From Mesorhizobium sp. (GTDB lineage Bacteria; Pseudomonadota; Alphaproteobacteria; Rhizobiales; Rhizobiaceae): a stretch of DNA of 64,000 nt. This document shows positions 5,631 through 59,440 of the stretch, one piece after another. The position numbers and the translations under genes are program-made. The DNA is taken from assembly GCA_004020545.1 (NCBI GenBank), contig SAQE01000001.1, forward strand, positions 1-64,000, in the 5' to 3' direction. Within the stretch, counting starts at the first letter, position 1, and each line of letters begins with the position of its first letter. The notes beneath the pieces were generated by a model that did no database searches, had not been told where the DNA came from, and saw nothing but the letters and a program-made list of their open reading frames with translations.

Positions 5631-5957
5631 ATGAAAGTCGTACTGATGCGCTTGGCAGCTCTGAGCGTGGCCGGACTTGTCCTGGCCGCGCCATTTGCCG
5701 TTCGGGCGCAAGACGACGACGATGACCACGATCGGGCGCGCGATCTTTATGAACGCGGCGAGATCGAGGGCCTTGCCGGTATTCTGAGCATTGTCCACGC
5801 CAAGGCTCCCGGTGAGATTGTCGCGGTCGATCTCATTCGCTCAGGAGGTAAGTGGGTCTATCGGGTTCAGGTGGTCGCTGCCGACGGTCGCCGTAGGATC
5901 GTCGACGTCGATGCCAGGGCCGGCGCCGTTGTGGGCGGTGAAGGCGACGACAGATGA
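5631..5957 (+). CDS. PepSY-domain exported protein
   Basis: The 108-residue protein has a signal peptide (MKVVLMRLAALSVAGLVLAA, cleaved near VRAQ), an Asp-rich stretch (DDDDDHD), then one PepSY domain (GEIVAVDLIRSGGKWVYRVQVV and RRIVDVDARAGAVVG). PepSY proteins upstream of two-component genes are common and may modulate the sensor or chelate metal. An alternative ATG lies at 5613. The TGA overlaps the ATG of the response regulator (ATGA at 5954-5957), so the three genes form one operon. Confidence 0.82.
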   Translation: MKVVLMRLAALSVAGLVLAAPFAVRAQDDDDDHDRARDLYERGEIEGLAGILSIVHAKAPGEIVAVDLIRSGGKWVYRVQVVAADGRRRIVDVDARAGAVVGGEGDDR

Positions 5958-24039: not shown

Positions 24040-27000
24040 TTACGCCACGTCCGCCGCGATGAACCAATCGTTGATCTCCCGCAATTCCGCACGGGCCTCT
24101 TCGAACCTACCCTGTGACCGCAATAGCTTCGCCAGACTATTGGTCGCCTGCAACTCCCAACTCCTGGCGCTCTGCTGCCGCGCAAAGGCAATCGCCTCGC
24201 GGAAAGAAGCCTCCGCCGCTCGGTCTCCTGCTCCATTTGCAAGTTCGATCTCACCGCGAATGCGAAGCAAGGCAGCGGTAAAGTAATGCTCGCCGATCTT
24301 TTCGGCCTCGCGCAGACCTTTCTCAACGGTCTCCGCCGCTATATCGAATTGCCCGGAGTTCATGAAAGCCTTGGCGAGCAATCCTAAATAACATGACTTG
24401 TCGACCTCCTGATCTTCAAGATCACTTTCGGTCAGCGCCATCATGTGGCTTCCCCCCAGACTGTCGTCGAGGCCAGATGCAGCCAGGCCGCCAAAAAAGC
24501 GCGCCACCCTTGCCCAGAGATTGAAGCCATTTTCCTGCGCCAGCGGCAGGAGTTCATCCGCCAGCCGAGCGATCAACCTGCTCTCTTCGCGGAAGGCGAA
24601 CAACACGCACCCGTTTCCCAGGCAGGCGGCCAAGCGATATGCGGACTGCTGCCGAACGGTCGCTTCCGCCTCGCGGTAGAGTTTCAGCGCTTGATGGCGA
24701 TAGCCCAGAATATGCAAGGTCCAGGAAAGGTAGATCATGGCCATGCTCGGAAAGTCGCTGCCGACCTTGTCTGCGCTGGCCTTGTGGCTGAGAGCGTGCT
24801 CAAGATATTGCCGGGCCGCCACCAACTCGCCCTGACAAAACAGTGTCATCCCCTTGAACTGCAAACCTATGACGAGCGCGTTCAGGTAGCCGCCCTGCTC
24901 GCCGACCCGAATTAACTCATCGCTGGCCGCAAGGGCCTTGCCAAACTGGCCCGAGTTGAAATGGGTGCCGAAAAGCCCGTCGAGCGCCCTGATCGTCGCT
25001 TCCGGTTCGCCAAGCTTCCCGCTCAGAGCTATGGCCCGCTGATATGCGGCGCTGCCTTCGCCCGTCACATAGCCTTGCGCGGCGTAGAGCACGTCGCCCA
25101 GCTCCAGTTCGAAGCGAAGCAGCCTGCGGCTGCGATCGTCGGATTCGGGCAGGAGCTTTGCGGCTTCAAGCCCCTTCCTGAAGATACGCACTGCGTCAGC
25201 TTTTGCCCAAGTCTTAGCCGCCTTCAGTCCTGCCAGCAGCCAGTAGTCAGCGGCGCGATCGAACAGACCTGCGTCGGCGAAATGCTCGGCGAGCACTTCG
25301 GGATAGGCTGCGTTGTGGTCGCGCAGTTCGAGACATTCGGCGATCGATTGGTGAATCTGCTGCGCGCGTTCGTGCAGCATGGTGCCTCTCGCGGCCTGCT
25401 GCAGGAGCACGTGGGTGAACGAAAAGCCCGCGCCGGCCGTCCCCCGCTCGGCTACGATCAGCCCCGTGCGCATCAGGTCGCCAACTGCGGCGCGCAACTC
25501 CGCTTCGGGCCAATCGCAAATCTCGCGCAGTACGTCGAAATCGAATTTGCGGCCGATCGCCGCCGCGATCTGCGCAACTTCCTTGGCGCGCCCCAGCCTG
25601 TCGAGGCGGGCAAGCAGCGAGAACTGCAGGGAGTTTGGAATGTTGTTCGTAAGAGACGAACGCTTCGGCTGAGACGCGTCCAGCCGCAACCCGGTTTCGA
25701 CCACGCTCCGAGCAAGCTCTTCGATATAGAGCGGGACGCCTTCACTGCGATCGAGCACCACTGAAACATCGGCGGCGAGCGCATTCGGACTGATGTCATG
25801 GACAATCGCCTCGGCATCCTCGCGGCCGAGCGCTTCAAGCCTGACGTGATGCACATCCGGCCTGTCGAACCATGGAACGGTTGCGTTGTTCCTGCTCGAT
25901 ACAAGCAGCAGCGCAGGCGTCGAAGCCAGGCTGGCGACGATTTTGTCGAGCAGCTCGCGCGAGGTCGCGTCGGCCCATTGCTCATCTTCGAACAGGATCA
26001 GGATCGGGGTGGTACGCGCCAGGTAACCGACCAGATCCATGAGCGCGTGCTCGGCGATGTTTCGCTGTCGTTCGGCGCTTACCCCGTCGAGCCTGTCCGG
26101 CCTGGTCGTCGGTATGCCGAGCAGGCTCGAGAAGATCGCCAGCGCGACGTCGCTGGACACCGAACCCATCGACAATGCGTTGCGGAGCTTTCGCAGCTTT
26201 TCTTCCGTGGAGTCACCGTCCTCGATCGTTGCGATCCTCTGCAACTCTGCGAGGAATGGATAAAGGGTGCTGTTCTCAAAGGTCGGAGAACATTGCATGG
26301 TCAGTTGCGGAAAGCTGCGCAGGCGCTGCTGGACTTCGTTGAGCAACCGGGATTTGCCGATTCCCGACTCTCCCGAAACCCACACCGCATTGCCGCGCCT
26401 GTCGCGCACGACGGTCTCCCAGCGCTCCATCAGCAGCCGCAATTCGGCATTGCGCCCGCACAGCTTGGTCATATGCGCGCGCTTTGCAAAGCGGGTCGGC
26501 ACCATGCGCTGCCGTTGCACCTGCCAGACCTGGACTGGCTCGGCGAATCCCTTCAGCTCATGTTTGCCGAACGTGGTGAAATCAATCGCGCCGCTCGCGG
26601 CCTCGAAGGTCGCCGCGTCGACAAGGATCGTGTTCGGCTTGGCCAGTACCTGCAGACGCGCCGCCAGATGCGCGACGTGGCCGAAGGCGACGGTGGACAC
26701 GCCGCTCGGCGCGCCGACGAACTCGCCCACCACGACCTGGCCGCTGGCGATGCCCAACCTCACTTGCAACGGATATCCCTGTTTTGCCGAGATGGCGGCC
26801 ACCGCATCGACGATCTCGAGTGCCGCCAGCACCGCGAACTCGCTGTCGTCCTCGCCGGCTATCGGATAACCGAAATAGGCCTGGATGGCGTCGCCGATGT
26901 AACTGGCCGTCACACCCTTGCGGCGTTGGATGACGCTGCTGCAGGTCTGCAGAAAGCTCTCGATCAGGCGCTGGAAATCCTCGGGATCCAGGCGGTCGGC

Positions 27001-27117
27001 ATATTCGGTTGACCCCACCATGTCGCAAAAAAGGATGGTGAGATAACGCCGCTCCGCAACAGACTTCGCCGGACTGCTGGGCAAAATCGGGCTAGCCAAT
27101 GGAACCGGCGTGGTCAA
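24040..27117 (-). CDS. Class III adenylate/guanylate cyclase - AAA ATPase - TPR regulator
   Basis: The 1025-residue protein has a class III cyclase domain (about 20-200), an AAA/NACHT-like ATPase (Walker A SGESGIGKS near 248-256) and C-terminal TPR-like helices (about 600-1020). Metal-binding Asp32 (FCDMVGST) and Asp76 (YIGDAIQAY) are present, as is Arg154. The usual transition-state Asn is His150 (GHVAHLAARL), which may lower or alter activity. This architecture is expanded in rhizobia. The start is TTG at 27117, with AGGAGG about 10 bases upstream and no alternative ATG before the catalytic motif. Confidence 0.9.
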   Translation of the reverse strand: MTTPVPLASPILPSSPAKSVAERRYLTILFCDMVGSTEYADRLDPEDFQRLIESFLQTCSSVIQRRKGVTASYIGDAIQAYFGYPIAGEDDSEFAVLAALEIVDAVAAISAKQGYPLQVRLGIASGQVVVGEFVGAPSGVSTVAFGHVAHLAARLQVLAKPNTILVDAATFEAASGAIDFTTFGKHELKGFAEPVQVWQVQRQRMVPTRFAKRAHMTKLCGRNAELRLLMERWETVVRDRRGNAVWVSGESGIGKSRLLNEVQQRLRSFPQLTMQCSPTFENSTLYPFLAELQRIATIEDGDSTEEKLRKLRNALSMGSVSSDVALAIFSSLLGIPTTRPDRLDGVSAERQRNIAEHALMDLVGYLARTTPILILFEDEQWADATSRELLDKIVASLASTPALLLVSSRNNATVPWFDRPDVHHVRLEALGREDAEAIVHDISPNALAADVSVVLDRSEGVPLYIEELARSVVETGLRLDASQPKRSSLTNNIPNSLQFSLLARLDRLGRAKEVAQIAAAIGRKFDFDVLREICDWPEAELRAAVGDLMRTGLIVAERGTAGAGFSFTHVLLQQAARGTMLHERAQQIHQSIAECLELRDHNAAYPEVLAEHFADAGLFDRAADYWLLAGLKAAKTWAKADAVRIFRKGLEAAKLLPESDDRSRRLLRFELELGDVLYAAQGYVTGEGSAAYQRAIALSGKLGEPEATIRALDGLFGTHFNSGQFGKALAASDELIRVGEQGGYLNALVIGLQFKGMTLFCQGELVAARQYLEHALSHKASADKVGSDFPSMAMIYLSWTLHILGYRHQALKLYREAEATVRQQSAYRLAACLGNGCVLFAFREESRLIARLADELLPLAQENGFNLWARVARFFGGLAASGLDDSLGGSHMMALTESDLEDQEVDKSCYLGLLAKAFMNSGQFDIAAETVEKGLREAEKIGEHYFTAALLRIRGEIELANGAGDRAAEASFREAIAFARQQSARSWELQATNSLAKLLRSQGRFEEARAELREINDWFIAADVA

Positions 27118-31282: not shown

Positions 31283-32194
31283 CTATTGTTCGAAAGGCTC
31301 TCCCAGCGAAGCCACGCCGTTGAGCTTAAGCAGACGCCGGTTCGAAGAAATGATGCCCAGCACGACGATTGTCACGATATAGGGCAGGCTCGATAGAAGT
31401 TGCGAAGAGACGTCCAGTCCGGTCGCCTGGGCCGCCAGGCTTGCCAGGGAGACGGCGCCGAAGAGGCAGGCGCCGAGGAAGATACGGCTGGTGAGCCAGG
31501 TGCCGAAGACGACGAGCGCGATCGCGATCCAGCCGCGCCCGGCAATCATGCCATCGGCCCACAGGGGCGTGTAGACCACGGCCGCGTAGGCGCCGGCGAA
31601 ACCCGCCAACACGCCTCCGAAGGCGACAGCGGCGAAGCGCATGGCGATCACCGGATAGCCGAGCGCATGGGCCGCCTTGGGATTCTCGCCGACGGCGCGA
31701 ACGACAAGGCCGGTCTTGGTGTAGGCGAATATTCCCCAGATGGCGACGGTCGCAGCAAGCGAGAGCCACACGACGACGTCCTGAGCGAACAGGCCGCCGA
31801 TGACCGGGATATCTGAAAGCCAGGGCAATGAAAGCTTCGGAAGGCCTTTGACCGTGAGGCTCTCATAGGTCTTGCCGAACAGTGCCGAGAGGCCCTGGCC
31901 GAGTATGCCTATGGCGAGTCCCACCGCGACCTGGTTCGCGCGGAACCCCAGCGCGATAACGGCAAAGACAAGGGAAAGAGCAGCACTTGCGAGGCCCGCG
32001 GCGAGGAAACCCAGGAGGTGGCCGCCGCCGTGATAGACGATGATGAAGGCGGTGACCGCCCCCAAGGCCATCAGTCCCTCCACGCCGAGATTGAGGACGC
32101 CGGCCCGCTCGGCCACCATTTCGCCGAGCGCCGCCAAAAGGAACGGCGTGGCCGCCGCCAGCATTCCGGCGACGATGAACTCGATGGCATTCAT
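31283..32194 (-). CDS. BMP-type ABC transporter permease (YufQ-like)
   Basis: The 303-residue inner-membrane permease is the second of a pair for a purine/nucleoside importer. It has about nine hydrophobic segments, the family start GEMVAERAGVLNLGVEGLM, and the ATPase-contact loop VVRAVGENPKAAHALG. The frame runs open upstream, but the ATG at 32194 overlaps the stop of the first permease (ATGA). It is the last gene of the modified-purine operon; the 194 bases beyond it (31089-31282) show nothing. Confidence 0.93.
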   Translation of the reverse strand: MNAIEFIVAGMLAAATPFLLAALGEMVAERAGVLNLGVEGLMALGAVTAFIIVYHGGGHLLGFLAAGLASAALSLVFAVIALGFRANQVAVGLAIGILGQGLSALFGKTYESLTVKGLPKLSLPWLSDIPVIGGLFAQDVVVWLSLAATVAIWGIFAYTKTGLVVRAVGENPKAAHALGYPVIAMRFAAVAFGGVLAGFAGAYAAVVYTPLWADGMIAGRGWIAIALVVFGTWLTSRIFLGACLFGAVSLASLAAQATGLDVSSQLLSSLPYIVTIVVLGIISSNRRLLKLNGVASLGEPFEQ

Positions 32195-33291
32195 GGAGCG
32201 CTTCCGTGGGCGGCATGGCGCCATTCGAGCCGGTAGCGGACGAAGGCGATGGCGACGAGATAGGCGAGCAGCAGGCTGCCCTGGAAGACCCGGACCGCGG
32301 CGACCGGCAGATTTGCCGAGACCATGGCGTTGTCGCCGCCGATATAGAGGGCCGCCATGAGCAGCGCGGAAAAAACGATGCCTATCGGGTGAAGGCCACC
32401 GAGATAAGCAACGATGATGGCCGCATAGCCGTAGCCGGTCGAGATGGAGCGCTGCAGCTGGCCGAGCGGCCCGGCCACCTCGGCCGCCCCGGCGAGGCCG
32501 GCCGCGAAGCCGCCGATGAGGAGGGAAATCCAGATTGCGCGGCCTTCGTTGAAGCCGGCGTATCCGGCCGCGCGCGGCGCGAGGCCGCCGACCTGCAGCT
32601 TGAACCCGGCGAAACTCCTCTGCATGAACAGCCAGGCCGCGAGGGACAGCGCGCAGGCGATAAGCAGCGAGACGTTGACGCGGGTGCCGGGGATCAGGGT
32701 CGGCACCATCGCGTCGTACTGGAACATCACCGACTGCGGGAAGTTGAAGCCGGCCGGGTCCTTCCAGGGGCCGAGAAGCAGGTAGTTGAGCAGTTGCGCG
32801 GCAACGAGCGCCAGCATCAGCGATACGAGAATCTCGTTCGCGTTGAGCCGCACGCGCCAGAACGCCGTGAGCGAAGCCCAAAGCGCGCCGCCCAGCGCGC
32901 CGAGGACGAGCATGGAGGGCCAAATCCACTGCCCCGTCGCCTGCGGGAGCCAGATGGGAATGGCCGACGCGAAGATTGCGCCGAGGATGAACTGCCCCTC
33001 CGCGCCGATGTTGAAGACCTTGGCGCGAAAGCCGATCGCAAGCCCCTGCGCGATGAGCAGCAGCGGCCCCATCTTCAGCAGGACTTCCGAGAACGAAGCC
33101 CAGGACAGGAAAGGTTCCAGGAGCATTGCGTGGAAAACAGCCACCGGATCGCGGCCCATCAGGAGGTAGAGCCCGAGATTGAGCAGTGTCGCAAGGCCCA
33201 GCGCCACGGGCGGGGCGAGCAGCTTGATTGCAAGCGAGGCATGTTCGCGGCGAACCAGAACGGGAAGGAACCGCAGGGACAGAGCACTCAT
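32191..33291 (-). CDS. BMP-type ABC transporter permease (YufP-like)
   Basis: The 366-residue permease has the family segment IGFRAKVFNIGAEGQFILGA and the conserved late stretch GYGYAAIIVAYLGGLHPIGIV. It pairs with the permease encoded immediately downstream, with ATGA overlaps at both ends to its neighbours. Related systems import nucleosides or purines (for example the YufNOPQ/RnsBACD type). The substrate here is inferred from the linked deaminase. Confidence 0.93.
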   Translation of the reverse strand: MSALSLRFLPVLVRREHASLAIKLLAPPVALGLATLLNLGLYLLMGRDPVAVFHAMLLEPFLSWASFSEVLLKMGPLLLIAQGLAIGFRAKVFNIGAEGQFILGAIFASAIPIWLPQATGQWIWPSMLVLGALGGALWASLTAFWRVRLNANEILVSLMLALVAAQLLNYLLLGPWKDPAGFNFPQSVMFQYDAMVPTLIPGTRVNVSLLIACALSLAAWLFMQRSFAGFKLQVGGLAPRAAGYAGFNEGRAIWISLLIGGFAAGLAGAAEVAGPLGQLQRSISTGYGYAAIIVAYLGGLHPIGIVFSALLMAALYIGGDNAMVSANLPVAAVRVFQGSLLLAYLVAIAFVRYRLEWRHAAHGSAP

Positions 33292-34811
33292 GCGGGGACC
33301 TTTTCGGCGGTCGTATGCGCACCGATCATATAGCGGCCGATCTCCTCGGGTCTGGTGTCGCGCGTCACCAGCGGCGGGCTCAGCCGGCCCTGATGGATCA
33401 CCTGGATGGAATCGCAGAGCTCGAACAGTTCCTCCAGTTCCTCCGAGATGACGAGGATGCCCATGCCTTCGTTGCGCAGGGCGACGAGGCGCCGGCGGAT
33501 GGCGGCCGCGGCGCCGATGTCCACGCCCCAGGTGGGCTGCGCCACAAACAGCAATTTCGGCGACAGCATGATCTCGCGGCCGACGATGAACTTTTGCAGA
33601 TTGCCGCCCGAAAGCGCCCCAGCCTCCGTTTCGGAGCCCGGCGTGCGTACGTCATACTGCCGGATGCAGTCTTCGGTGAAAGCTTTCGCCCGGGGCGTGT
33701 CGACCAGGCCGCGTTTCAGGAGGCCGGAGGGATGGGCGGTCAGAAGGCTGTTGAGGACGAGCGACATTTCCGGCACCGCGCCGCGGCCCAGCCGTTCCTC
33801 GGGAACGAAGGCGAAACCCAGCCGGCGGCGGGCGGCCGCATCGAGCACGCCGACGTCCTTGCCCATCATGAAGATACGCTCGGACTTTTCGCGCGGCAGC
33901 ACTGTCTCGCCCGAGATCAGCGCCGCGAGTTCGCTCTGGCCGTTGCCCGATATGCCGGCGATACCGAGGATCTCGCCTGCCCGGACCGTCAGGCTGACGT
34001 CGCAAAGCGTCACGGCGAAGGGATCGTCGGGCCGATGGTCGAGGCCGACGATTTCAAGGCGCTTTTCCCCGCGGGAATGGGCAACCGCCGGCATGGGCTG
34101 CGGCATGTCGCGGCCGATCATCATGCGGGCGAGGTCGTGCGCGTCGTGGTCGCGCGGATCCACGTGGCCGGTGATGCGCCCGCCGCGCAGGATGGTCGCA
34201 CGGTCGCAGACCGCGCGGATCTCCTCCAGCTTGTGCGAGATGAACAGGATGGAGACGCCGCCGTCGCGCAGCCGCCGCAACGTCTCGAACAGCTTGTCCA
34301 CCGATTGCGGCGGCAGGACGGAAGTCGGCTCGTCAAGGATCAGGAGTTGCGGTTCGGTCATCAGGCAGCGGATGATTTCCACCCGCTGCCGCTCACCGAC
34401 CGAAAGCGCGTGCACATGGGCGAGCGGATCGACCTCTAGACCGAAGTCGCGGCCGAGCTTGCGGATGCCTTGCGCAATATCCGATTTGGCACCGGGCACG
34501 ACCAACCGGATGTTCTCGACGACCGTCAGCGTCTCGAACAAGGAGAAATGCTGGAAGACCATGCCGATCCCCTTGCGCCTCGCATCCGCCGGGGACGCGA
34601 GGGCCAGGGGTTCTCCTTTCCAGGTCGCCGATCCAGCGTCGGCCTGCTCGACGCCGTAGATCAGCTTCATCAGCGTCGACTTGCCCGCCCCGTTCTCTCC
34701 GAGGATCGCATGGATCGAGCGCGGAGCCACGTCCAGATCGATGTCTCGATTGGCATGGATCTGGCCGTAGCTCTTGCAGACGCCGCGCAGCGACAGAAGC
34801 GGGGCGGTCAT
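33288..34811 (-). CDS. BMP-type ABC transporter ATP-binding protein (two ATPase domains)
   Basis: The 507-residue protein has two fused ATPase domains. The first has Walker A GENGAGKST, signature LSVGERQRVEI and Walker B LILDEPTS. The second has the degenerate P-loop GISGNGQSEL and signature LSGGNLQKFIVGRE that are normal in this family. It powers the two permeases downstream and overlaps the first by four bases. It starts 2 bases after the BMP gene. Confidence 0.95.
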   Translation of the reverse strand: MTAPLLSLRGVCKSYGQIHANRDIDLDVAPRSIHAILGENGAGKSTLMKLIYGVEQADAGSATWKGEPLALASPADARRKGIGMVFQHFSLFETLTVVENIRLVVPGAKSDIAQGIRKLGRDFGLEVDPLAHVHALSVGERQRVEIIRCLMTEPQLLILDEPTSVLPPQSVDKLFETLRRLRDGGVSILFISHKLEEIRAVCDRATILRGGRITGHVDPRDHDAHDLARMMIGRDMPQPMPAVAHSRGEKRLEIVGLDHRPDDPFAVTLCDVSLTVRAGEILGIAGISGNGQSELAALISGETVLPREKSERIFMMGKDVGVLDAAARRRLGFAFVPEERLGRGAVPEMSLVLNSLLTAHPSGLLKRGLVDTPRAKAFTEDCIRQYDVRTPGSETEAGALSGGNLQKFIVGREIMLSPKLLFVAQPTWGVDIGAAAAIRRRLVALRNEGMGILVISEELEELFELCDSIQVIHQGRLSPPLVTRDTRPEEIGRYMIGAHTTAEKVPA

Positions 34812-34813
34812 GG

Positions 34814-35911
34814 TTACTTGGGCAGCGGCGTGGTGACACCCTTGACGTGCCAGTCCATGGCGACGATCTCGGCCTCGGTCATCGTCTTGCCGGCGGGGAC
34901 GCCCTCCCTGCCGTCGGCCTTGGCGATCGGACCGGTAAAGGGCGAGAAGCTGCCGTCGGCGATCTTGGCTTCAACCTCCTTGATCCTGGCCATCATGCCG
35001 GCCGGGATGCCCGGGTTCCAGTCAGCGACCTCGACAACCTTGTCGCCGACACCCAGGAAAGCGCTGGCGCCCTTGAAGGTGCCGGCGAGGTGGGCGTCGA
35101 CCGAGGCCTTGAAGAAGGGCGACCAGTCGGTCGCCACGCAGCCGAGATAGGCCTTGGGCGCGTATTTCTTCATTGACGAGTTGAGGTTGAAGGCGGGGAC
35201 GCCGGCCTCCTCGCAGGCCGAGACGACGGACGGCGTATCCTGCGCGTTGGAGAAGATCACGTCGCATTTCTGCGCCAGCAGCGCCTTGGCGGCTTCCTGC
35301 TCCTTGGCCGGGTCGAACCAAGAATTCACCCATACGACCGAAACCTCGACATCGGGCTTCACCGCCTGCGCGCCCAAGGTGAAGGCGTTGATGGAGGTGA
35401 TCAGCTCAGGGATGGCGAAGGCGGAGACGGAACCGAGCTTGCCGGTCTTCGAAAGCGCGGCTGCCGCCATGCCCATCAGATAGGTGCCCTGCGAATATTG
35501 GGCCGCGAAGGGCGAGAAGTTCGGCGCCACCTGGAAACCGGAAGCATGCAGCACGGTGACGTCGGGATTGCGCCGCGCGATCTGCAGGGCGCCGTTCTGG
35601 TATCCGAAGGAGCCGGCGATGAGGAACTTGTTCCCGTCGGCGACCGCCTTGTTCATGATGCGGTCGGCGTCGGGTCCCTCCTGTATGTTCTCGATGATGG
35701 TGACCTTCACCTTGTCGCCATAGGCTGCCTTCACCGGCTCGAGCCCGTCGGCGAGCGCGCGGCCCCAGCCGACATCGCCGACCGGCGACGGGACCACCAG
35801 CGCGATGCCCAGCGGTTCGTCGGCAGCAAGCGCGCGGCTGCCCACCGCGGCAACGAGGCCGGAAGCGGCGGCGCCCTTCATCAATGTTCTGCGGGTAAGA
35901 TTTATCAGCAT
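34814..35911 (-). CDS. BMP-family solute-binding protein with Tat-like signal
   Basis: The 365-residue periplasmic binding protein has an N-terminal TRRTLMKG twin-arginine-like signal cleaved near ALAADE. The mature BMP domain has IALVVPSPVGDVGWGRA and the family segment SNAQDTPSVVSACEEAGVP. BMP proteins bind nucleosides or purines. It lies 30 bases downstream of the deaminase gene and immediately upstream of its ATPase gene, so binding protein, ATPase and permeases are in one unit. Ligand identity is inferred. Confidence 0.92.
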   Translation of the reverse strand: MLINLTRRTLMKGAAASGLVAAVGSRALAADEPLGIALVVPSPVGDVGWGRALADGLEPVKAAYGDKVKVTIIENIQEGPDADRIMNKAVADGNKFLIAGSFGYQNGALQIARRNPDVTVLHASGFQVAPNFSPFAAQYSQGTYLMGMAAAALSKTGKLGSVSAFAIPELITSINAFTLGAQAVKPDVEVSVVWVNSWFDPAKEQEAAKALLAQKCDVIFSNAQDTPSVVSACEEAGVPAFNLNSSMKKYAPKAYLGCVATDWSPFFKASVDAHLAGTFKGASAFLGVGDKVVEVADWNPGIPAGMMARIKEVEAKIADGSFSPFTGPIAKADGREGVPAGKTMTEAEIVAMDWHVKGVTTPLPK

Positions 35912-35941
35912 GTCGGTTCCCCTTGCTTTTGGTTTTGGTTG

Positions 35942-37321
35942 CTAGAATTGCACGGTCGCGAGCGCCGCCTCGGCTTGCGCGAACATCCTGGCCTCGTCGA
36001 GCCCCGGGAATTCTCCCTTGGCCCAAACGACACGGCCGTTGATCATGGTCATGTCGGTCGGCGCGCCGATGCCCACCTTGGCCAGCAGGCTCAGCGGATC
36101 ATGCCGCGTGCCGACATAGTCCATGCGTCGGGTGTCGATGGCGAAGAGGTCGGCGGCCATGCCGGGCGCCAGCCTGCCGATGTCGCCGCGCCCGAGCAGC
36201 GCCGCCCCCCCGGTCGTCGCATAGCCGAGAAAATCGGCCGGCGGCGGCACCGGATGGTCGCGCGTAGACGCCGCCAGACATTGCAGCATGTAGGCGGAAT
36301 GGATGCAGTGCATCAGATTGGAATTGTCGTTCGAGGCGGCGCCGTCGCAGCCCAGTCCGACACTGAGCCCGAGGGCCGACATCGCCGGTATGTCGGTGAT
36401 CTCGGCGCCGACGAGATAGACCGGCTCAGGGCAATGCGAGACGCCGGCGCCGCTCGCCGCCATCTTGCGCAGCTCGTCATGGGTCAGCTCCCAGCAATGG
36501 GCATAGAAGGCATCCGGCCCGCAGAAGCCGATCTCGGCGCAATAGTCGACCGTGCGCAGGCCGTGACGGGCCTGCATGACCGGGCTTTCGCCCTCGCCGA
36601 CATGGGTGTGCATGCGCACGTTGCGGTCGCGCGCCAACGCCACCGATTCCACGAACGTGTCGCGATAGCAGTTGACCGGCTGGCAGGGCGCGACGACGAC
36701 CTGGCGCATGCCGAAGCGACCGGCATCATGGTAGGCGTCGATCAGCCGGGCGCAGTCGGCGATGAACTCGTCCGTCGTTTCCAGCATGGCGTCGGGGATG
36801 GTCGAGCCTTCCGATTTCGGCAGCGTGTTGCCGCCCCGTCCGGCATGGAAGCGCATGCCGAGCAGTTCGGCCGCTTCGAACTGCCGGTCGATCAGCCGTT
36901 TGCCGGCGTGCCGCGGAAAACAGTATTGATGGTCGAAAGCCGTCGTGCAGCCGTGCTTTATCAACTCCGCCATCGCCGTGACCGACGCGTGGTAGAAGCA
37001 TTCCTCGGTCAGCCGCGAGAAAATGGGGTAGATGCGGTCGAGCCATTCGATGACCGACAGCTTCGTCCAGTCCAGGTCGGCGCGGTTGCGCACGAAGCAT
37101 TGAAAGAAGTGATGATGGGTGTTGACGAGGCCGGGATAGACGAACCAGCCGGCGGCGTCCTGCGCGACGGTGCCGACAGGCAGTTCCCCCTTGTCGAGGC
37201 CTTCGCCGATGGCCCGTATCGCCGGGCCGTCGGTCAAGACATCGACATTGCGACGGACGCTCGGACCGTCGCCATCGTCGACGATGACCGCAGCGCAGTT
37301 CTTCAATAGATAACCCGTCAT
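35942..37321 (-). CDS. 8-oxoguanine/guanine deaminase-type amidohydrolase
   Basis: The 459-residue metal-dependent hydrolase belongs to the TRZ/ATZ-8-oxoguanine deaminase group. Metal ligands are visible in LVNTHHHFFQ, RMHTHVGEGE, YAHCWEL and LGCDGAASND. The product of such enzymes is urate (from 8-oxoguanine) or xanthine (from guanine). A frame 98 codons longer exists, but the ATG at 37321 gives the family start (MTGYLLKNCAAVIVDD) and follows the GST stop by one base. It is the only gene in the cluster with a direct purine link. Confidence 0.85.
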   Translation of the reverse strand: MTGYLLKNCAAVIVDDGDGPSVRRNVDVLTDGPAIRAIGEGLDKGELPVGTVAQDAAGWFVYPGLVNTHHHFFQCFVRNRADLDWTKLSVIEWLDRIYPIFSRLTEECFYHASVTAMAELIKHGCTTAFDHQYCFPRHAGKRLIDRQFEAAELLGMRFHAGRGGNTLPKSEGSTIPDAMLETTDEFIADCARLIDAYHDAGRFGMRQVVVAPCQPVNCYRDTFVESVALARDRNVRMHTHVGEGESPVMQARHGLRTVDYCAEIGFCGPDAFYAHCWELTHDELRKMAASGAGVSHCPEPVYLVGAEITDIPAMSALGLSVGLGCDGAASNDNSNLMHCIHSAYMLQCLAASTRDHPVPPPADFLGYATTGGAALLGRGDIGRLAPGMAADLFAIDTRRMDYVGTRHDPLSLLAKVGIGAPTDMTMINGRVVWAKGEFPGLDEARMFAQAEAALATVQF

Positions 37322-37322
37322 G

Positions 37323-37982
37323 TCAGGCCTCACCGCCTCCAAGGACGGGCTCGGGTTTGAGCTCGTGCAGCCGGTGGATGCCGGGCATCTCGATGAAGCC
37401 GTCGATGGCGCGGATCGCCCGCGACCATAGCCGGATCGCGGGATAGGGATCGAGCAAAACGCCGCCGTCCGGCGCCAGCGCGACATAGGGAAAGCAGGCG
37501 ATATCGGCGACCGTCGGCCGGTCCGACGCAAGGAAGCGCTGGCCGCGGATGCGCTGTTCGACGAGGCCGGCTTCCAGTTCCCGCAGGGCCGCCGTGCCCT
37601 GCCCGCGAAGCGCATCGATATTGCCCGGACGCAGCAGCATCTCGTGCAGGCGCGCCGCTCCCAGGCTGGCGGTCAGCCGATGCGAGAAGGAAAGCCATTG
37701 CTGGACGCGTGCCGCCGGTCCGGCCGCATCGTTGCCCAGCCATTGCGGCGCCGCCTTCGCGGCGAGGTAGACCAGCATGGCCGAGGATTCGGTCAGGACG
37801 AGGTCGCCATCCTCCAGAATCGGGATCGAGCCCGCCGGGTTGAGCGCCAGGAGTTCGGGGCCGCGATGCTCACCGCCGGGATGGAAGTCGACGGGGCGGA
37901 TGTCGAGCGCCACACCGGTCAGCGCCGCCATCAGGCGCACCTTGTAGCAGCTCGGAGACAGCACGTAGTCGTAGAGCTTCAT
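37323..37982 (-). CDS. Glutathione S-transferase-family protein (possibly NdmE-like)
   Basis: The 219-residue protein has an N-terminal thioredoxin-fold domain (YVLSPSCYKVRLMAALTG; glutathione-binding NPAGSIPIL and LTESSAMLVYLA) and a helical C-terminal domain with RPTVADIACFPYVALAPDGG. It overlaps the oxygenase catalytic gene by four bases. In the caffeine N7-demethylase NdmCDE, a GST-like subunit (NdmE) holds the oxygenase complex together, so a structural role is as plausible as glutathione conjugation. Confidence 0.88.
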   Translation of the reverse strand: MKLYDYVLSPSCYKVRLMAALTGVALDIRPVDFHPGGEHRGPELLALNPAGSIPILEDGDLVLTESSAMLVYLAAKAAPQWLGNDAAGPAARVQQWLSFSHRLTASLGAARLHEMLLRPGNIDALRGQGTAALRELEAGLVEQRIRGQRFLASDRPTVADIACFPYVALAPDGGVLLDPYPAIRLWSRAIRAIDGFIEMPGIHRLHELKPEPVLGGGEA

Positions 37983-38824
37983 TGTGCCACCAGTTGCGCG
38001 CCGTAGGTGTAGCCATGGCGTTTCAGCCAGCGCCGGTAGGCAACCGAGGTCAGGTCGGCCCGCGTGGGTATCTCCATGCCGGGATCGAGCGGCAGCAGCC
38101 CCGGGATCTGGTTTTCAAGAATCGACCGGTCCTGGACGAAGATCGTCTGCTGGAAATGAATCAGGTCCGTCATCGGCGTTTCGTCGTCGAACAGCGCCAT
38201 CCATGGCCAGACGTCGCATAGATCTTCGGCAAGCGGCTGCACGAAAAGGGTGATGACGTCCCATTCACCCGGGCGCGGCGGGCAGGTCTTGTAGAGGATC
38301 GAGCAGGTCGGCGCGGGCACGCGATACATGTATTGCGTGGTGATGCCGCCTTCCGCCGACTTGGCGGCCTGCGGCTGGTAGAACTGCACCTGGGTCGCCC
38401 ATACCTCGTCTTCGTCCTCGCGGATCTCGACCTTGTAGTTCTGCACCTCCGTATGCGGCTCGGCTCCCAATATGTCGGTATGCACGAACGGAAAATGCGC
38501 AATGTCCAGGAAGTTCTCCACCGCGCGCAGCGGCGAGCAGCGCACGCGCACCACCCCGACATCGACGAGCCGGCGGCCGGGCTGATCGGCCTCGGGGATC
38601 GCAAACAGCGGCTTTTGCGGATCACCGAGCGACGCCCAGACATGGCCATAGCGGATACAGGCTCGCAGAACACGTCCGTTGCCGCCGGTGACCTTGGCGT
38701 TCCCGTCCTCGCCGAGCCTCACCTCGATCGGCTCGCCCATGAGGGCGGTCTTGCGTCCATGCGCATCGAGCTGGCTGGCAAGGCCGACCGGATACCATTC
38801 GTCGATCATCGCGTTGCGGGTCAT
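37979..38824 (-). CDS. Rieske oxygenase catalytic subunit lacking its [2Fe-2S] ligands (NdmC-like)
   Basis: The 281-residue protein starts like a Rieske oxygenase (DEWYPVGLASQLD, LMGEPIEVRLGEDG) but jumps at about residue 48 to the end of that domain (RYGHVWASLGDP), so the CxH and CxxH cluster ligands are gone. The mononuclear iron site is intact: bridging Asp107 and His110, His115 in LDIAHFPFVH, with Asp232 a likely carboxylate ligand. The ATG at 38824 overlaps the stop of the separate Rieske gene. It would oxidise, probably N- or O-demethylate, a purine-like substrate, taking electrons from the Rieske protein encoded upstream. Confidence 0.85.
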   Translation of the reverse strand: MTRNAMIDEWYPVGLASQLDAHGRKTALMGEPIEVRLGEDGNAKVTGGNGRVLRACIRYGHVWASLGDPQKPLFAIPEADQPGRRLVDVGVVRVRCSPLRAVENFLDIAHFPFVHTDILGAEPHTEVQNYKVEIREDEDEVWATQVQFYQPQAAKSAEGGITTQYMYRVPAPTCSILYKTCPPRPGEWDVITLFVQPLAEDLCDVWPWMALFDDETPMTDLIHFQQTIFVQDRSILENQIPGLLPLDPGMEIPTRADLTSVAYRRWLKRHGYTYGAQLVAQ

Positions 38825-39471
38825 CGGGCGGTCCCGCTGGCCGCAACATGCTCGGCCGCCCGCCGCAGCGCCTCGGCGGCCCTCGACGCGGCGATACGCT
38901 CGGTCGGATTGCTGTCCTGGTCCACCAGAACATGCATCAGCGTCCGCGCTTTTCCTTCGAGAGTAAGCAGCAGCCGCACCGTCCGGCCAGCATGCGTGTA
39001 GTCGAGCAGGCCTTCGGCGGCCTTCGTCCCGGCGGCCGTCTCCAGCGCGGCGATGCCCGCTTCGACCATCATGGAGCGCAGGGGAGCAAGGCCGTCGAAC
39101 CGTGGCGGCCCGGCGGCGGGTTCGCCAGCCGGAATCCAGATGATGCCGCCGCCATCCTCGACGGGCTGTGTCACGACACGAATCGTGTCCGGCGGCGTCA
39201 GTGCCGGATGGGCCGGAATGCGCAGGCAGTTTCCCGCCTGGGCATAGCTCCAACCGTGATAGATGCAGGACAGGGTCTCACCGCGCACGAAGCCGTGGGA
39301 GAGGCGCATGCCGCGATGAGGGCATCTGTCGGCAAAGGCCGCCGCACGGCCGGAGCGGCTTCGCCAAAGGGCAATCGGCCCGGCTGGGGATTGCGCTGGC
39401 ATCACGGTTCCCGCCGGCAAGTCCGCGGAGAGGGCAACAGGCATCCAAGAGCCGGTCGGATAGGGCGGCAT
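38821..39471 (-). CDS. Stand-alone Rieske [2Fe-2S] oxygenase subunit
   Basis: The 216-residue protein has a complete Rieske domain (about 5-115) with Cys50-x-His52 (RCPHRG) and Cys69-x2-His72 (CIYHGW), then a C-terminal part (about 120-216) with no iron site motif. It most resembles the N-terminus of vanillate-demethylase-type oxygenases detached from its catalytic half. The matching catalytic half is the next gene (four-base overlap). No reductase gene is present nearby, so electrons must come from a general or distant reductase. Confidence 0.87.
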   Translation of the reverse strand: MPPYPTGSWMPVALSADLPAGTVMPAQSPAGPIALWRSRSGRAAAFADRCPHRGMRLSHGFVRGETLSCIYHGWSYAQAGNCLRIPAHPALTPPDTIRVVTQPVEDGGGIIWIPAGEPAAGPPRFDGLAPLRSMMVEAGIAALETAAGTKAAEGLLDYTHAGRTVRLLLTLEGKARTLMHVLVDQDSNPTERIAASRAAEALRRAAEHVAASGTAR

Positions 39472-39631
39472 ACATCAACTTTCAAACGACACCAGCATGT
39501 TTCCGAGCGCGGCTTCGCGGTCAAGGATATGCTAATAGACCCGGTTACGTTTGCACAACATTTCCTCACTGGCAATAATGCCCAAAAAAGGTGCATGGCG
39601 CCTTTCGCAGGGAGAGGCCGCAGGCCGGAAA

Positions 39632-39901
39632 CTAGCCCGATTCGCCTTCTATCGGCGCCCGCCGGATGGCCTCGACCCAGACATCGATTGGTCCAAGAGA
39701 GCACCCCATCTCCATCATGTCGATGAGCTCGACCGGACCGGCAATGTCGAGTTCGATGCGGTCGGGACCGGCAACGCATATTGCCTGCGCGAGCCCGAGC
39801 TTGGCGGCATGACGCTCGATCCACGGAAGGAAGGATGCCGCCTCGACATCGCCGAGGATCGTCATGCGCTCCCGCCAGGAATGGCGATTTTGCTCGCTCA
39901 T
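39632..39901 (-). CDS. Acylphosphatase-like small protein without catalytic residues
   Basis: The 89-residue protein follows the acylphosphatase pattern: MTILGDVEAASFLPWIERHAAKLGL, then VAGPDRIELDIAGPVELIDMME and CSLGPIDVWVEAI. The catalytic Arg (usual VQGVGFR loop, here VEAASFL) and Asn (usual WVRN, here ICVAG) are not seen, so it may bind rather than hydrolyse. GAGG lies about 6 bases before the ATG. It is upstream of the Rieske gene (160-base gap, same strand) and may be the first gene of the purine operon. Confidence 0.6.
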   Translation of the reverse strand: MSEQNRHSWRERMTILGDVEAASFLPWIERHAAKLGLAQAICVAGPDRIELDIAGPVELIDMMEMGCSLGPIDVWVEAIRRAPIEGESG

Positions 39902-41068: not shown

Positions 41069-41809
41069 ATGCGCATCGCGATCCTGTCTGACATCCATGC
41101 CAACCGCGAGGCGTTCGACGCAGTCCTGGAGGCCGTTCAGAATCTGGCACCGGACCAGCTGGTTCTGCTTGGCGATCTGGTCGGCTATGGGCCCGATCCT
41201 GTCTACGTGGTCGAGAAGGCGGCCGGTCTGGTAGGGAGCGGCGCGTTCTGCATCATGGGCAACCACGACGAGGCGGCGGCGTTTGGCCGGGCCGACATGA
41301 CCGAGAACGCGCGGGTCTCCATCGAGTGGACCCGCAAGCAGGTCGGCCGGGAGCATCTCGATTTCCTGGCGCGGCTGCCGCTTTCGCTGCGGTCCGAAGA
41401 CCGGCTCTATGTCCACGCCAGCGCGGATCGACCGGAAAAATGGGTCTATATACGCGACGTCGACGCGGCGGGACGCTGCTTGTCCTCCAGCGACGCCCGC
41501 TTCATCTTCTGTGGCCACACCCACATTCCGGCCATCTACTACGCCTTGCCCGGTGCGCGGCCCATCCATTTTTCGCCGCGGAACAATGTGGCGGCGCCTT
41601 TGTCCGGACTGCGGCGGCATCTGATCGTCGTTGGGGCGGTCGGCCAGCCGCGCGACGGCAACCCGGCCGCCTGCTTTGCGCTTCTCAACACCGAACGGCG
41701 TGAGGTGACAATGGTTCGCGTTCCTTACGATCATGAGGCGACCGCCCGCAAGATCGAGGCGTCCGGCCTGCCCGCGTGGCTTGGCATGCGCTTGAAAATT
41801 GGCCGCTAG
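41069..41809 (+). CDS. Calcineurin-type metallophosphoesterase (YfcE-like)
   Basis: The 246-residue cytoplasmic phosphoesterase shows the family motifs in order: SDIHAN (7-12), LGDLVGYGPDP, GNHDEAA, and late CGHTHIP. These bind a di-metal centre. Relatives cleave phosphodiesters or phosphoproteins. It is encoded 17 bases upstream of a Ser/Thr kinase-UspA fusion on the same strand, so a paired kinase/phosphatase role is possible. A weak FixK-like sequence lies upstream. Confidence 0.92.
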   Translation: MRIAILSDIHANREAFDAVLEAVQNLAPDQLVLLGDLVGYGPDPVYVVEKAAGLVGSGAFCIMGNHDEAAAFGRADMTENARVSIEWTRKQVGREHLDFLARLPLSLRSEDRLYVHASADRPEKWVYIRDVDAAGRCLSSSDARFIFCGHTHIPAIYYALPGARPIHFSPRNNVAAPLSGLRRHLIVVGAVGQPRDGNPAACFALLNTERREVTMVRVPYDHEATARKIEASGLPAWLGMRLKIGR

Positions 41810-41826
41810 TTTCCCGGAGACGATCG

Positions 41827-43239
41827 ATGGACAGGTTGGAGGCAGGGGCAAGCATCGACGGTTTCGAACTCGTCGAAAGACTTCAGTCCGGCGGCATGGC
41901 GGCGCTGTGGCGCGCGAAAAATTCGAAGTTCGATTTTCCGCTTCTGCTGAAGCTCCCTTTTCTCGACCCAGGCGGGGACGTCTCCGTCATTCTTGGCTTC
42001 GAAGCCGAGGAACTGATCCTCAAACGCCTGTCGGGCCCGCATGTGCCGCGCTATGCCGCATCCGGCGGCCTGGCGAAGGTGCCCTATATCGCAATGGAGT
42101 TCGTTGCCGGGGTCGGCCTGGCGGAAGCGGCCGGCCGCGCGCCGTTGCCGCCGGAGGAGGTGGCAAGGATCGGCGCCGAAATCGCGAAGGCGCTCGCCGC
42201 CCTGCACCGCCAGAAGGTCGTTCATCTCGATCTCAAGCCCGAGAACATCATTCTGGCCGAGCGCGGCGCCGTGCTTCTGGACTTCGGCCTCGCCCGCCAC
42301 GCCGAGCTTCCGGACCTTCTCGGCGAGGAGAGCTCCGTGCCGATGGGCACCGCTGCCTATATTTCGCCGGAACAGATTCTGGGCGAGAGGTCCGATCCCG
42401 CAAGCGACCTGTTTGCGCTGGGCTGCATTCTCTATCAGCTCGTCACCGGCGAGGAGCCATTCGGACGTCCGGCCACGCTCGCCGGAATGAAGCGCAGGCT
42501 CTATCATGCGCCCAAGCCGCCGCGAGATATCGACAAGGCCATTCCGAGGTGGCTGGAAGCCGTCATCCTGCGATGCATGGAAGTTGACAGGTCCAAGCGG
42601 TATGCCGAGGCGGCGCATGTGCTTTCAGACCTCAGAAACCCCGACCAGGTCGTGGTTGCCAGGCCGCGCGCGCCATCGAACGCAAGAAGCTGGGACGGCA
42701 TCAGGAATCTCTTCCGCAGAACAGATGAGAAGGCGCTGGTGGGGAAGCCGGCCGGCTCCAGGGTGCAGGCCGGACCGCCGATCGTTCTGGCCGCGGTCGA
42801 CCTCGCCAACGGAAGCGATGCGCTGGCAGCCGAGGTTCTCAACGAAACCGCGCGTGTGCTTGCCGCGCGGGAGGATTCCTGGCTGGCCTGTGTTACGGTG
42901 CTGAAGACCGAGATCATCGGCGACACGCCGGCCGCCGATGAATCAGGACAACTGACCTACCTGAAGCGGCTGGTGGCGCTCAAAGACTGGGCGCATCCGC
43001 TGCATCTGCCGGAGGATCGCATAAGCTATCATGTGCTCGAGGCCGTCAGTCCGGCCGACGCCATCCTCAACTACGCCGAGCACAATGACGTCGGACATAT
43101 CGTTGTCGGTGCCCGATCGTCTTCGGCACTTCGCCGGCACCTCGGCAGTGTCTCGACCAAAGTCGTGGCGCGCGCCCTTTGCTCGGTATCGGTCGTCCGG
43201 TTGAAGGCGATGGAGGAGCTAAGGCGACGACAGCCGTGA
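41827..43239 (+). CDS. Ser/Thr protein kinase fused to UspA domain
   Basis: The 470-residue protein has a Hanks-type kinase domain (about 10-285) and a C-terminal universal-stress domain (about 320-465). Kinase residues: a Gly-rich loop in LQSGGMAALW, Lys42, catalytic Asp135 in HLDLKPEN (a non-RD loop), and Asp152 in LDFGLA. The Usp part ends with GARSSSALRRHLGSVS, a nucleotide-binding loop. The ATG at 41827 has GGAG upstream; the longer frame overlaps the phosphoesterase gene. No transmembrane segment is visible, so it is likely a soluble stress-signalling kinase. Confidence 0.92.
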   Translation: MDRLEAGASIDGFELVERLQSGGMAALWRAKNSKFDFPLLLKLPFLDPGGDVSVILGFEAEELILKRLSGPHVPRYAASGGLAKVPYIAMEFVAGVGLAEAAGRAPLPPEEVARIGAEIAKALAALHRQKVVHLDLKPENIILAERGAVLLDFGLARHAELPDLLGEESSVPMGTAAYISPEQILGERSDPASDLFALGCILYQLVTGEEPFGRPATLAGMKRRLYHAPKPPRDIDKAIPRWLEAVILRCMEVDRSKRYAEAAHVLSDLRNPDQVVVARPRAPSNARSWDGIRNLFRRTDEKALVGKPAGSRVQAGPPIVLAAVDLANGSDALAAEVLNETARVLAAREDSWLACVTVLKTEIIGDTPAADESGQLTYLKRLVALKDWAHPLHLPEDRISYHVLEAVSPADAILNYAEHNDVGHIVVGARSSSALRRHLGSVSTKVVARALCSVSVVRLKAMEELRRRQP

Positions 43240-57967: not shown

Positions 57968-59440
57968 ATGGCCAGCATCACGATCCGCAACCTTGACGAC
58001 GAGGTCAAGGATCTGCTCCGGCAACTGGCGGCCGAAAATGGCTGCTCGATGGAGGAGCAGGCGCGGGCGATGATCCGCGCGGCGGTCGAAGGCCGGGCAG
58101 GGCAGGCCGACCGCATCGACCAGATCGAGAAGACGCTGCGCGCGCTGACAGGCTCCGGCCAGCAAGCGACGCCTGCCTCTGCCGGATCCGGCAAACTATC
58201 GGTTCGGGGAACGCTCTCAGACAGGCGCATCCTGCTCATCATCGGCGGCGGCATCGCCGCCTACAAGGCGCTCGATCTGATCAGGCGCTTGCGCGAGCGG
58301 GGTGCTTCCGTCCGCGTTGTCATGACGGGCGCGGCGCAGGAATTCGTCACCACGCTCTCGGTCGGCGCGCTTTCGTCCGATCACGTCTTCACCGATCTGT
58401 TCGACCGCAATGACGAGCATGATGTCGGTCATATCCGGCTGTCGCGAGAGGCCGACCTGCTGGTCGTGGCGCCGGCCACCGCCGACCTGATGGCCAAGCT
58501 CGCCAACGGCCATGCCAACGACCTCGCCTCGACGGTGCTCTTGGCCACCAACAAGAAGGTTCTGATGGCGCCGGCGATGAACCCGAAAATGTGGTCGCAT
58601 CCGGCGACGCGCCGCAACCGGGCAGCGCTGCAGAAGGACGGCATCGCCTTTGTCGGTCCCGCCAGGGGCGAGATGGCGGAAAGCAACGAGGCCGGCGAGG
58701 GCCGCATGGCCGAGCCGCTGGAGATCGTGGCGGCGATCGAGGCCATGCTCGACGAAAAGCCGAAGCCGCTTTCGGGCCGCAGGATCATCGTCACCTCGGG
58801 GCCGACGCATGAGCCGATCGACCCGGTGCGCTACATCACCAACCGCTCGTCCGGCAAGCAGGGCCATGCGATCGCGGCCGCACTGGCGAAGCTCGGGGCC
58901 GATGTCCGGCTCGTGTCCGGTCCGGTCAACATCGCCGACCCGGCCGGGGTCACGACCACGCATGTCGAAACCGCGGCCGAGATGAAGGATGCGGTCGAAA
59001 ACCTTTTGCCGGCGGACGCGGCGGTTTTCGTCGCCGCGGTCGCCGACTGGCGCACGGCCAGTGCCGCGGGCGAGAAGATCAAGAAGGTGGCGGGCGAGGG
59101 GCCGCCCTCGCTCAAGATGGTCGAGAATCCCGACATCTTGGCCGGCGTCGGCCATCACATCAAGCGGCCGGGCCTCGTCGTCGGCTTCGCCGCCGAGACG
59201 CAGGACCTGATCAGCAACGCCGAGGCCAAGCTCAGGAAGAAGGGCGCAGATTTCATCGTCGCCAACGACGTCTCGCATGAGAGCGGGATCGGCCCGTCCG
59301 GCGTGATGGGCGGCGACCGCAACAAGGTGCGCATCGTCTCCAGGACCGGCGTCGAAGAATGGCCGGAGATGGGCAAGGACGAGGTGGCGGCGCGGCTCGC
59401 TGAGCTCATTGCCGAGCGGCTGCAGACGGTTGTCGTTTAA
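57968..59440 (+). CDS. coaBC: CoaBC with N-terminal ribbon-helix-helix (FitA-like) domain
   Basis: The 490-residue protein starts with a 40-residue ribbon-helix-helix segment (MASITIRNLDDEVKDLL, GCSMEEQARAMIRAA) like FitA/VapB antitoxins, a linker to about 80, then bifunctional CoaBC: GGGIAAYKALDLIRRL, PAMNPKMW, and the ligase part SGPTHEPIDPVRYITNRSS and ANDVSHESGIG. CoaBC makes 4'-phosphopantetheine precursors of coenzyme A. No start codon exists in frame between the two parts, so the fusion is real in this sequence. The Cys usual in the decarboxylase clamp (ACG) is not seen; the region reads AESNEAGEGRM. Confidence 0.93.
   Translation: MASITIRNLDDEVKDLLRQLAAENGCSMEEQARAMIRAAVEGRAGQADRIDQIEKTLRALTGSGQQATPASAGSGKLSVRGTLSDRRILLIIGGGIAAYKALDLIRRLRERGASVRVVMTGAAQEFVTTLSVGALSSDHVFTDLFDRNDEHDVGHIRLSREADLLVVAPATADLMAKLANGHANDLASTVLLATNKKVLMAPAMNPKMWSHPATRRNRAALQKDGIAFVGPARGEMAESNEAGEGRMAEPLEIVAAIEAMLDEKPKPLSGRRIIVTSGPTHEPIDPVRYITNRSSGKQGHAIAAALAKLGADVRLVSGPVNIADPAGVTTTHVETAAEMKDAVENLLPADAAVFVAAVADWRTASAAGEKIKKVAGEGPPSLKMVENPDILAGVGHHIKRPGLVVGFAAETQDLISNAEAKLRKKGADFIVANDVSHESGIGPSGVMGGDRNKVRIVSRTGVEEWPEMGKDEVAARLAELIAERLQTVVV

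Follow-up and report, generated by a model that had tools for sequence, protein, structure and literature searches.

A split, NdmCDE-like Rieske oxygenase encoded together with an NdmH-type hydrolase in a conserved operon of Mesorhizobium and related bacteria

Gene content and conservation of the operon

We analysed a stretch of 64,000 nucleotides from Mesorhizobium sp. (contig SAQE01000001.1 of assembly GCA_004020545.1, positions 1 to 64,000; hereafter the window), which comes from a 7 Mb genome assembled in 188 contigs. It contains an operon on the reverse strand that encodes a Rieske-type oxygenase in two parts, together with a glutathione S-transferase (GST)-like protein, an amidohydrolase and an ATP-binding cassette (ABC) importer. 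The initial annotation had recognised eight adjacent genes on one strand, and their coordinates proved correct; to these we add a ninth, encoding a small acylphosphatase-like protein (39632–39901; PF00708, 17.1 bits, below the cut-off of 22.5), a gene that lies on the same strand, with 160 bases between it and the Rieske gene downstream. The gene for the Rieske protein of 216 residues (38821–39471) is followed by those for the catalytic oxygenase protein (37979–38824), the GST-like protein (37323–37982; PF02798 and PF13410), the amidohydrolase (35942–37321) and the importer. The last comprises a BMP-type substrate-binding protein (34814–35911; PF02608, E 5.3e-38), an ATPase with two ABC domains (33288–34811; two stretches of PF00005) and two BPD_transp_2 permeases, permease 1 (32191–33291; PF02653, E 3.6e-36) and permease 2 (31283–32194; PF02653, E 2e-30), and is thus a complete set of the BMP/PnrA type. 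Neighbours among the eight genes either overlap by four bases or are separated by gaps of 1 to 30 bases. The stop codon of the Rieske gene and the start codon of the catalytic gene share the bases ATGA (38821–38824), an arrangement which suggests that the two may be translationally coupled.

Relatives were collected in one scan of genome contigs, and the best 80 of 529 were kept as loci, each viewed together with as much as 10 kb of flanking sequence, which contig ends shorten in some cases; the residue alignments have 81 rows. Separate Rieske, catalytic and GST genes were found in all 80 loci, those at L117 being fragmentary. The acylphosphatase-like gene was present in 78 loci (it was not found in L052 and L081), the BMP-type binding protein in 75 and the hydrolase in 71. 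The spacing between the Rieske and catalytic genes was −4 in 72 loci, −1 in five, and +1, 71 and 277 in one locus each, the last value belonging to L117. All nine genes also occur on pRL10 of Rhizobium johnstonii 3841 (L031) and in Qingshengfaniella alkalisoli; the full set is likewise found on p42c of R. etli CFN 42, where the small upstream gene is annotated as hypothetical. A neighbourhood survey had been proposed in the initial annotation, and it is clear from it that the operon is real and widespread: the gene set recurs across the 80 loci, in records of Mesorhizobium, Rhizobium and Rhodobacteraceae, a conservation that excludes a chance association.

Close homologues of the oxygenase and of the hydrolase occur together in 17 of 150 relatives, which are one inherited operon and do not count as independent evidence. 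When genomes were sampled more broadly, 5 of 398 in the phylum sample and 1 of 385 in the class sample matched, the window's own genome counted, and none lay beyond the family of the window. Since the oxygenase was seen in Rhodobacteraceae and yet missed there by both samples, the sampling is thin.

Cluster and iron site on two proteins

The Rieske and catalytic domains had been assigned to separate proteins, with four residues as cluster ligands, and both statements hold. C50 and H52 of the Rieske protein were found in 80 of 81 rows, the remaining row having a gap, and C69 and H72 in all 81. The three residues given for the iron site of the catalytic protein, D107, H110 and H115, are also invariant (81/81), but their assignment needs a correction: by analogy with naphthalene dioxygenase, D107 is presumably the bridging aspartate, and D232, again present in 81/81 rows, presumably the third iron ligand. 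That the catalytic protein has no Rieske cluster was rightly predicted; after the fragmentary L117 had been dropped from the motif count, CxH..CxxH occurred in none of 80 catalytic proteins and DxxHxxxxH in every one. The cluster and the mononuclear iron are therefore encoded by two genes in all the loci kept, unlike in the canonical alpha subunit, which is a single chain.

The two proteins were also modelled (each of the structure alignments drew on 34 of 67 candidate relatives). According to the models, the catalytic protein begins with a reduced Rieske-like domain that lacks the cluster motif; in the Rieske protein, a small second domain, C-terminal and lacking the iron motif, is positioned like a catalytic domain. 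The description of the latter as a stand-alone Rieske protein is thus right in that it has its own gene and no fused reductase, but it would not be a bare Rieske domain. The models suggest for each of the oxygenase proteins the two-domain fold of an alpha subunit, the iron site being retained by one and the cluster by the other. Their best structural matches were the alpha subunits of SxtT/GxtA, dicamba monooxygenase and NdmA, which carry both centres in a single chain, unlike the proteins encoded here. The two halves look like copies of a single alpha subunit, each degenerate in the half that the other has kept, a shared origin that we infer from the modelled folds. A comparison by hhalign of the catalytic family with the second, C-terminal domain of the Rieske protein found no link at the level of sequence (probability 0.1 and 0.0), so that the relation of the second domain to that family rests on the model fold. 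A full-length oxygenase with both motifs is encoded in genome G126 (L130:8880–9890); it is 36% identical to each of the window's oxygenase proteins, adjoins a BMP importer and is a possible unsplit relative of the ancestor.

Relationship to NdmCDE and related clusters

NdmCDE of Pseudomonas putida CBB5 is a 7-methylxanthine N7-demethylase in which NdmC lacks a Rieske cluster, the Rieske centre is located on another protein and a GST-like partner is required; NdmC is specific for N7 (PMC4408171). The initial annotation had noted the likeness and proposed a comparison with NdmC-, NdmD- and NdmE-type sequences, and in this comparison the window proteins matched homologues of NdmC, NdmD and NdmE from clusters of the caffeine type. 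One of these clusters, on pTmex-577K of P. putida, holds a relative of the catalytic protein together with two full-length alpha subunits, a nucleobase symporter, a GST, a Rieske-reductase of 588 residues, a formaldehyde dehydrogenase and fghA; a similar gene set, with a reductase annotated at 464 aa, is present in Paraburkholderia caffeinilytica CF1 from tea plantation soil. The catalytic protein of the window is 44.9% and 46.4% identical to the pTmex-577K and P. caffeinilytica homologues, respectively, and 21–33% identical to ten full-length alpha subunits. Its GST is 42% identical over 205 residues to that of the pTmex-577K cluster (E 1e-55). The Rieske family matches residues 2–244 of NdmD (hhalign probability 100, E 1.8e-40), and the reductase match begins at residue 263–291 in six fused proteins; judged by sequence, NdmD looks like a Rieske protein of this type fused to a VanB-type reductase. 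Taken alone, the C-terminal part of the Rieske protein matched the corresponding part of NdmD weakly (probability 27.6, E 0.00065), and the full-length match is therefore carried mainly by the Rieske half.

A phylogenetic tree placed the catalytic-only proteins in one clade (support 100/99) and the members with a nearby stand-alone Rieske protein in one clade as well (98/89), with the exception of an aberrant Komagataeibacter copy, which lies on a long branch just outside. Lichenihabitans and Roseicitreum fall in the 98/89 clade, and no separate Rieske gene was among the annotated features of the stretch viewed in them. On the order in which the fused NdmD and the stand-alone Rieske protein arose, the tree has weak deep support and long branches. 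Homologues of ndmCDE without an assigned function have been noted, mainly in Sinorhizobium and Mesorhizobium, in a paper whose available part does not mention a stand-alone Rieske form (PMC4408171); three such homologues in these genera (L036, L129 and L132) carry a fused NdmD. The operon described here differs from NdmCDE in its unfused Rieske protein and in having no linked reductase, whereas the Rieske domain of NdmD is fused to one; it differs also in the importer, the NdmH-type hydrolase described below and the acylphosphatase-like protein, and it contains no NdmA/NdmB-type gene. It represents a variant of NdmCDE, combined with a hydrolase of the NdmH type.

Genes of the NdmC type were also found in other settings. 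Mesorhizobium sp. AR02 has them near a BMP importer, a guanine deaminase and a molybdopterin hydroxylase-like gene, and Rhizobium tumorigenes near a guanine deaminase; in genome G081 they occur with both guanine and 8-oxoguanine deaminases. In Paracoccus alcaliphilus (L037) their neighbours are an 8-oxoguanine deaminase and a reductase of the VanB type, and on pSymA of S. meliloti 1021 (L036) and in genome G038 (L129) a formaldehyde dehydrogenase. Guanine deaminase scored above its cut-off in L132, L133 and L121, and 8-oxoguanine deaminase in L037, L121, L126 and L127. These recurrent links with deaminases, importers and formaldehyde dehydrogenase support a demethylation of guanine- and xanthine-type bases.

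Two of the clusters deserve a separate description. The pSymA cluster (L036:11812–23539), unannotated in the record copy used, contains three NdmC-type genes, a BMP importer, a fused NdmD-like protein, a GST-like stretch and a formaldehyde dehydrogenase. On a plasmid of Komagataeibacter nataicola from kombucha (L035:3905–10456), NdmC-type sets occur twice in tandem, accompanied by a VanB reductase; the first cysteine of the second motif is missing from one Rieske-like protein (5784–6317), and its catalytic neighbour (4966–5787) is only 31% identical to the window protein. One of the two sets may be degenerate or have another role.

The hydrolase carries the residues of NdmH

The amidohydrolase had been called an 8-oxoguanine/guanine deaminase, and this identity did not stand. 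It scored 366.9 bits against the 8-oxoguanine deaminase model (NF006055, cut-off 532) and 113.3 bits against the guanine deaminase model (TIGR02967, cut-off 375.4); four 8-oxoguanine deaminases of the related clusters reached 600–703 bits on NF006055. It has the residues of NdmH instead. The 8-oxoguanine deaminase identity was rejected on both the score and the residue set, the basis of the proposed 8-oxopurine catabolism goes with it, and nothing found in this analysis supports the O-alkylpurine catabolism suggested alongside.

NdmH was described from Pleomorphomonas, Haliea and a Rhodobacteraceae bacterium, the source of poNdmH being Pleomorphomonas oryzae; it takes off a whole dimethylamine in one step with a kcat/KM of 10^5–10^6, and its physiological context is said in the conclusions to be under investigation (Drexler et al. 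2026, PMC13054789). The main text of that paper mentions neither a Rieske protein nor a gene cluster or transporter. The residues named there are C213, Q214, N217 and N165 and nine further ones (PMC13054789), namely Q74, W85, W93, Y98, Y133, E243, H275, P300 and D326. All 13 are present in the window hydrolase at the same numbers as in poNdmH, and they are unchanged in 72/72 window-type rows (short rows from L059, L109 and L117 were dropped from this count). Eight other deaminases of the related clusters, when aligned, did not have the full set, and the four 8-oxoguanine deaminases lacked W85, N165, Q214, N217 and P300. A Pleomorphomonas sp. with the same operon (L084) has a hydrolase that is 80% identical to that of the window and in register with it at offset 0.

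In addition, a search that started from the hydrolase was made in 397 genomes of the order. It gave 12 proteins at E <= 1e-120, the window's own included, that were 80–100% identical; in all 12 cases the catalytic protein, GST, hydrolase, binding protein and ATPase were encoded side by side and the 13 residues were present, and all nine genes were seen in the three that were viewed over 19.5 kb. The hydrolase is NdmH-like and is predicted to be an N2,N2-dimethylguanine hydrolase.

The closest hydrolases outside the operon, 56–57% identical, are located on three soil-bacterial plasmids, one of them from an atrazine factory. They are annotated only as 'amidohydrolase', and their likeness to AtzB is putative. 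Where the window has CQNN, AtzB has SSII (PMC13054789) and one of the plasmid hydrolases (L146) has C, G, I and I; from its sequence the latter appears AtzB-like but is not of the SSII form. No Rieske gene was seen among the annotated features around it.

The importer and its binding pocket

The nearest solved relatives of the binding protein are AtzT (6pi5, E 2e-77) and the Brucella protein 3s99. AtzT binds guanine at about 110 nM through Tyr45, Ser97, Phe98, Glu165, Trp194, Asn218 and Asn220, 20-fold tighter than 2-hydroxyatrazine (PMC6834077). When the pocket residues were matched by counting along the 6pi5 alignment, the window protein was found to have Trp, Ser, Phe, Glu, Trp, Asn and Asp at these positions. 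W49, S101, F102, E169 and W198 occur in 75/75 rows, Tyr45 of AtzT being replaced by Trp in each of them; Asn218 is kept in 72 rows, Asn220 is Asp in all 75, and Asn169 is not kept. Most of the guanine pocket is thus retained, Tyr45, Asn169 and Asn220 excepted. The nearness to the guanine-binding AtzT agrees with the earlier description of the importer as purine-type, and importer and amidohydrolase together point to a base of the guanine type. Among nine importers of related clusters, whose alignments are more distant, four have the pocket glutamate and five have Asp or Ser. With the binding protein and the hydrolase (34814–37321) related to AtzT and to putatively AtzB-like plasmid enzymes, both atrazine proteins may have a natural source in operons like this one.

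Electron donor and other genes

No VanB-type reductase was linked to the operon in the 80 loci, some of which have shortened flanks, except for a weak match (24%) at L093; the remark that no reductase is nearby is borne out by the 79 loci in which there was no VanB-type match at all. The search of the source genome, which covered VanB-type donors, gave one match at E <= 1e-10 (38%), inside a dimethylamine oxidation cluster, and no dedicated reductase beyond it. Co-occurrence with genes for dimethylamine use was considered as support and was discarded as uninformative: PF11927 occurs in 103 of 150 relatives and in 88 of 89 genomes of the same genus (all but G013). The genome also encodes guanine deaminase (guaD, 563 bits) and XdhA (690 bits, cut-off 467), both on contig C104 and not on that of the operon.

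The acylphosphatase-like protein has no arginine in the presumed catalytic column in any of 79 rows; the column was assigned from what we take to be the catalytic-arginine motif of acylphosphatases. Elsewhere in the window, a CoaBC-like protein (57968–59440; DFP and Flavoprotein) has a FitA-like ribbon-helix-helix match at its N-terminus in the same frame, one protein combines protein kinase and universal stress protein domains (41776–43239), and a large protein (24040–27117) has adenylate/guanylate cyclase and AAA ATPase domains with a weak MalT-like TPR match.

Discussion

The core of the initial annotation, the dealkylation of an N-alkylpurine, is supported by the Ndm homologies, the importer and the amidohydrolase, and these suggest a more definite function. 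It seems rather probable that the operon imports and degrades N-methylated guanines, its split oxygenase stripping a methyl group from a ring nitrogen and NdmH yielding xanthine. The BMP-type importer would take up the methylated guanine base. The oxygenase would remove the ring N-methyl with release of formaldehyde, most likely at N7, a position whose sole basis is the analogy with NdmC. Electrons would pass from the Rieske protein across the subunit boundary, at the bridging Asp107, to the iron site of the catalytic protein; in the complex that we infer, its contacts and stoichiometry included, the NdmE-like GST would keep the parts together. The NdmH-type hydrolase would release the N2 amine or dimethylamine to give xanthine, which would enter normal purine breakdown. 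Demethylation and removal of the N2 amine could proceed in either order. This proposal does not depend on the claims made above about the importer pocket and AtzB.

Several observations weigh against it. NdmH alone converts N2,N2-dimethylguanine to xanthine (PMC13054789), so that for this step no oxygenase is required. The hydrolase was not seen in 9 of the 80 loci, eight of which have room for it, with L092 lying at a contig edge, so that hydrolase and oxygenase are separable; at L103, L116 and L118 the oxygenase and the importer stay together without it, and the oxygenase is therefore not dependent on NdmH. Position 206 of the catalytic protein is Trp in 79 of 80 rows and Tyr in one, and His in two caffeine-type homologues, which means that the substrate may differ from 7-methylxanthine. 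The pocket glutamate is shared by importers that adjoin the P. caffeinilytica and KF715 clusters and is absent from those next to guanine deaminase genes, and so it is by itself no proof of a guanine ligand. The operon contains neither a reductase nor a formaldehyde dehydrogenase, and matches to the latter were three in the 80 loci and weak (26–28%). Finally, the label NdmC-like is given because the pTmex-577K and CF1 clusters match ndmABCDE-frmAB (PMC4408171), the direct comparison being with the homologues from these two clusters.

A narrower version of the proposal can be put forward tentatively. The operon would be a dedicated pathway for multiply methylated guanines of RNA turnover in plant-associated and aquatic bacteria, with candidate sources such as N2,N2,7-trimethylguanine of eukaryotic snRNA caps and 7-methylguanine of mRNA caps and tRNA. 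The oxygenase, composed of two reciprocally degenerate alpha subunits and served by a general electron donor, would take off the methyl group at N7, and NdmH would take off the dimethylamine at N2. NdmH would have its physiological role in this pathway, which would also be a likely ancestral setting of AtzB and AtzT.

Other functions fit the data less well. The oxygenase could act on the N2-methyls of guanine, in parallel with NdmH, and not on a ring nitrogen, which would suit both the presence of a hydrolase at 71 of the 80 loci and the substrate reported for NdmH, N2,N2-dimethylguanine (PMC13054789). We regard this as unlikely, as the one-step removal of dimethylamine by NdmH makes an N2-demethylase redundant and the nearest characterised relative, NdmC, is N7-specific (PMC4408171). 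It is improbable that the oxygenase is a molybdenum-free xanthine hydroxylase of the HpxDE kind that oxidises the xanthine made by NdmH. Xanthine is indeed the NdmH product (PMC13054789), and distant relatives with 26–29% identity are annotated as HpxD, but NdmC-type proteins are much closer, the identity to the alpha subunit adjoining hpxO (L138) is 31%, and the genome already has XdhA. We would likewise give little credence to an ordinary N7-demethylation of methylxanthines (caffeine or theobromine) with the hydrolase as a chance neighbour. The NdmC/NdmE homology and the glutamate common to importers of caffeine-type clusters speak for it; against it stand the lack of a full-length NdmA/NdmB-type gene, the recurrence of a hydrolase with the NdmH residues and the change from His to Trp at position 206. 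That the substrate is another N-alkylated heterocycle (a triazine, pterin or cytokinin) and the purines are incidental is very improbable: the plasmid hydrolases, one of them from the atrazine factory, and the kinship of the binding protein with AtzT point that way, but the window retains CQNN where AtzB has SSII and the L146 protein C, G, I and I, AtzT itself prefers guanine to 2-hydroxyatrazine (PMC6834077), and the operon is widespread and conserved. The idea that the split is an artefact of a frameshifted single gene, named beforehand as a way to refute the annotation and suggested by the four shared bases, has virtually no probability left and is ruled out by the separate genes in every locus kept, 72 with the identical overlap, and by the modelled catalytic protein, whose own shrunken N-terminal domain would mean that the two proteins are not halves of one chain.

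Methylated guanines arise from RNA turnover and DNA alkylation. A search of the open-access literature found no work that ties them to a Rieske enzyme or describes their catabolism, and in none of the papers searched did dimethylguanine and Rieske occur together. With the operon, NdmH gains a concrete setting that can be tested. The models also point to another way of dividing a Rieske oxygenase, into two alpha-subunit-like proteins of which one would lack the iron motif and the other the cluster motif; with such a division, the passage of electrons from one subunit to another can be tested in mixtures of the parts. For soil and aquatic bacteria, the operon suggests a specific route for the use of methylated guanines.

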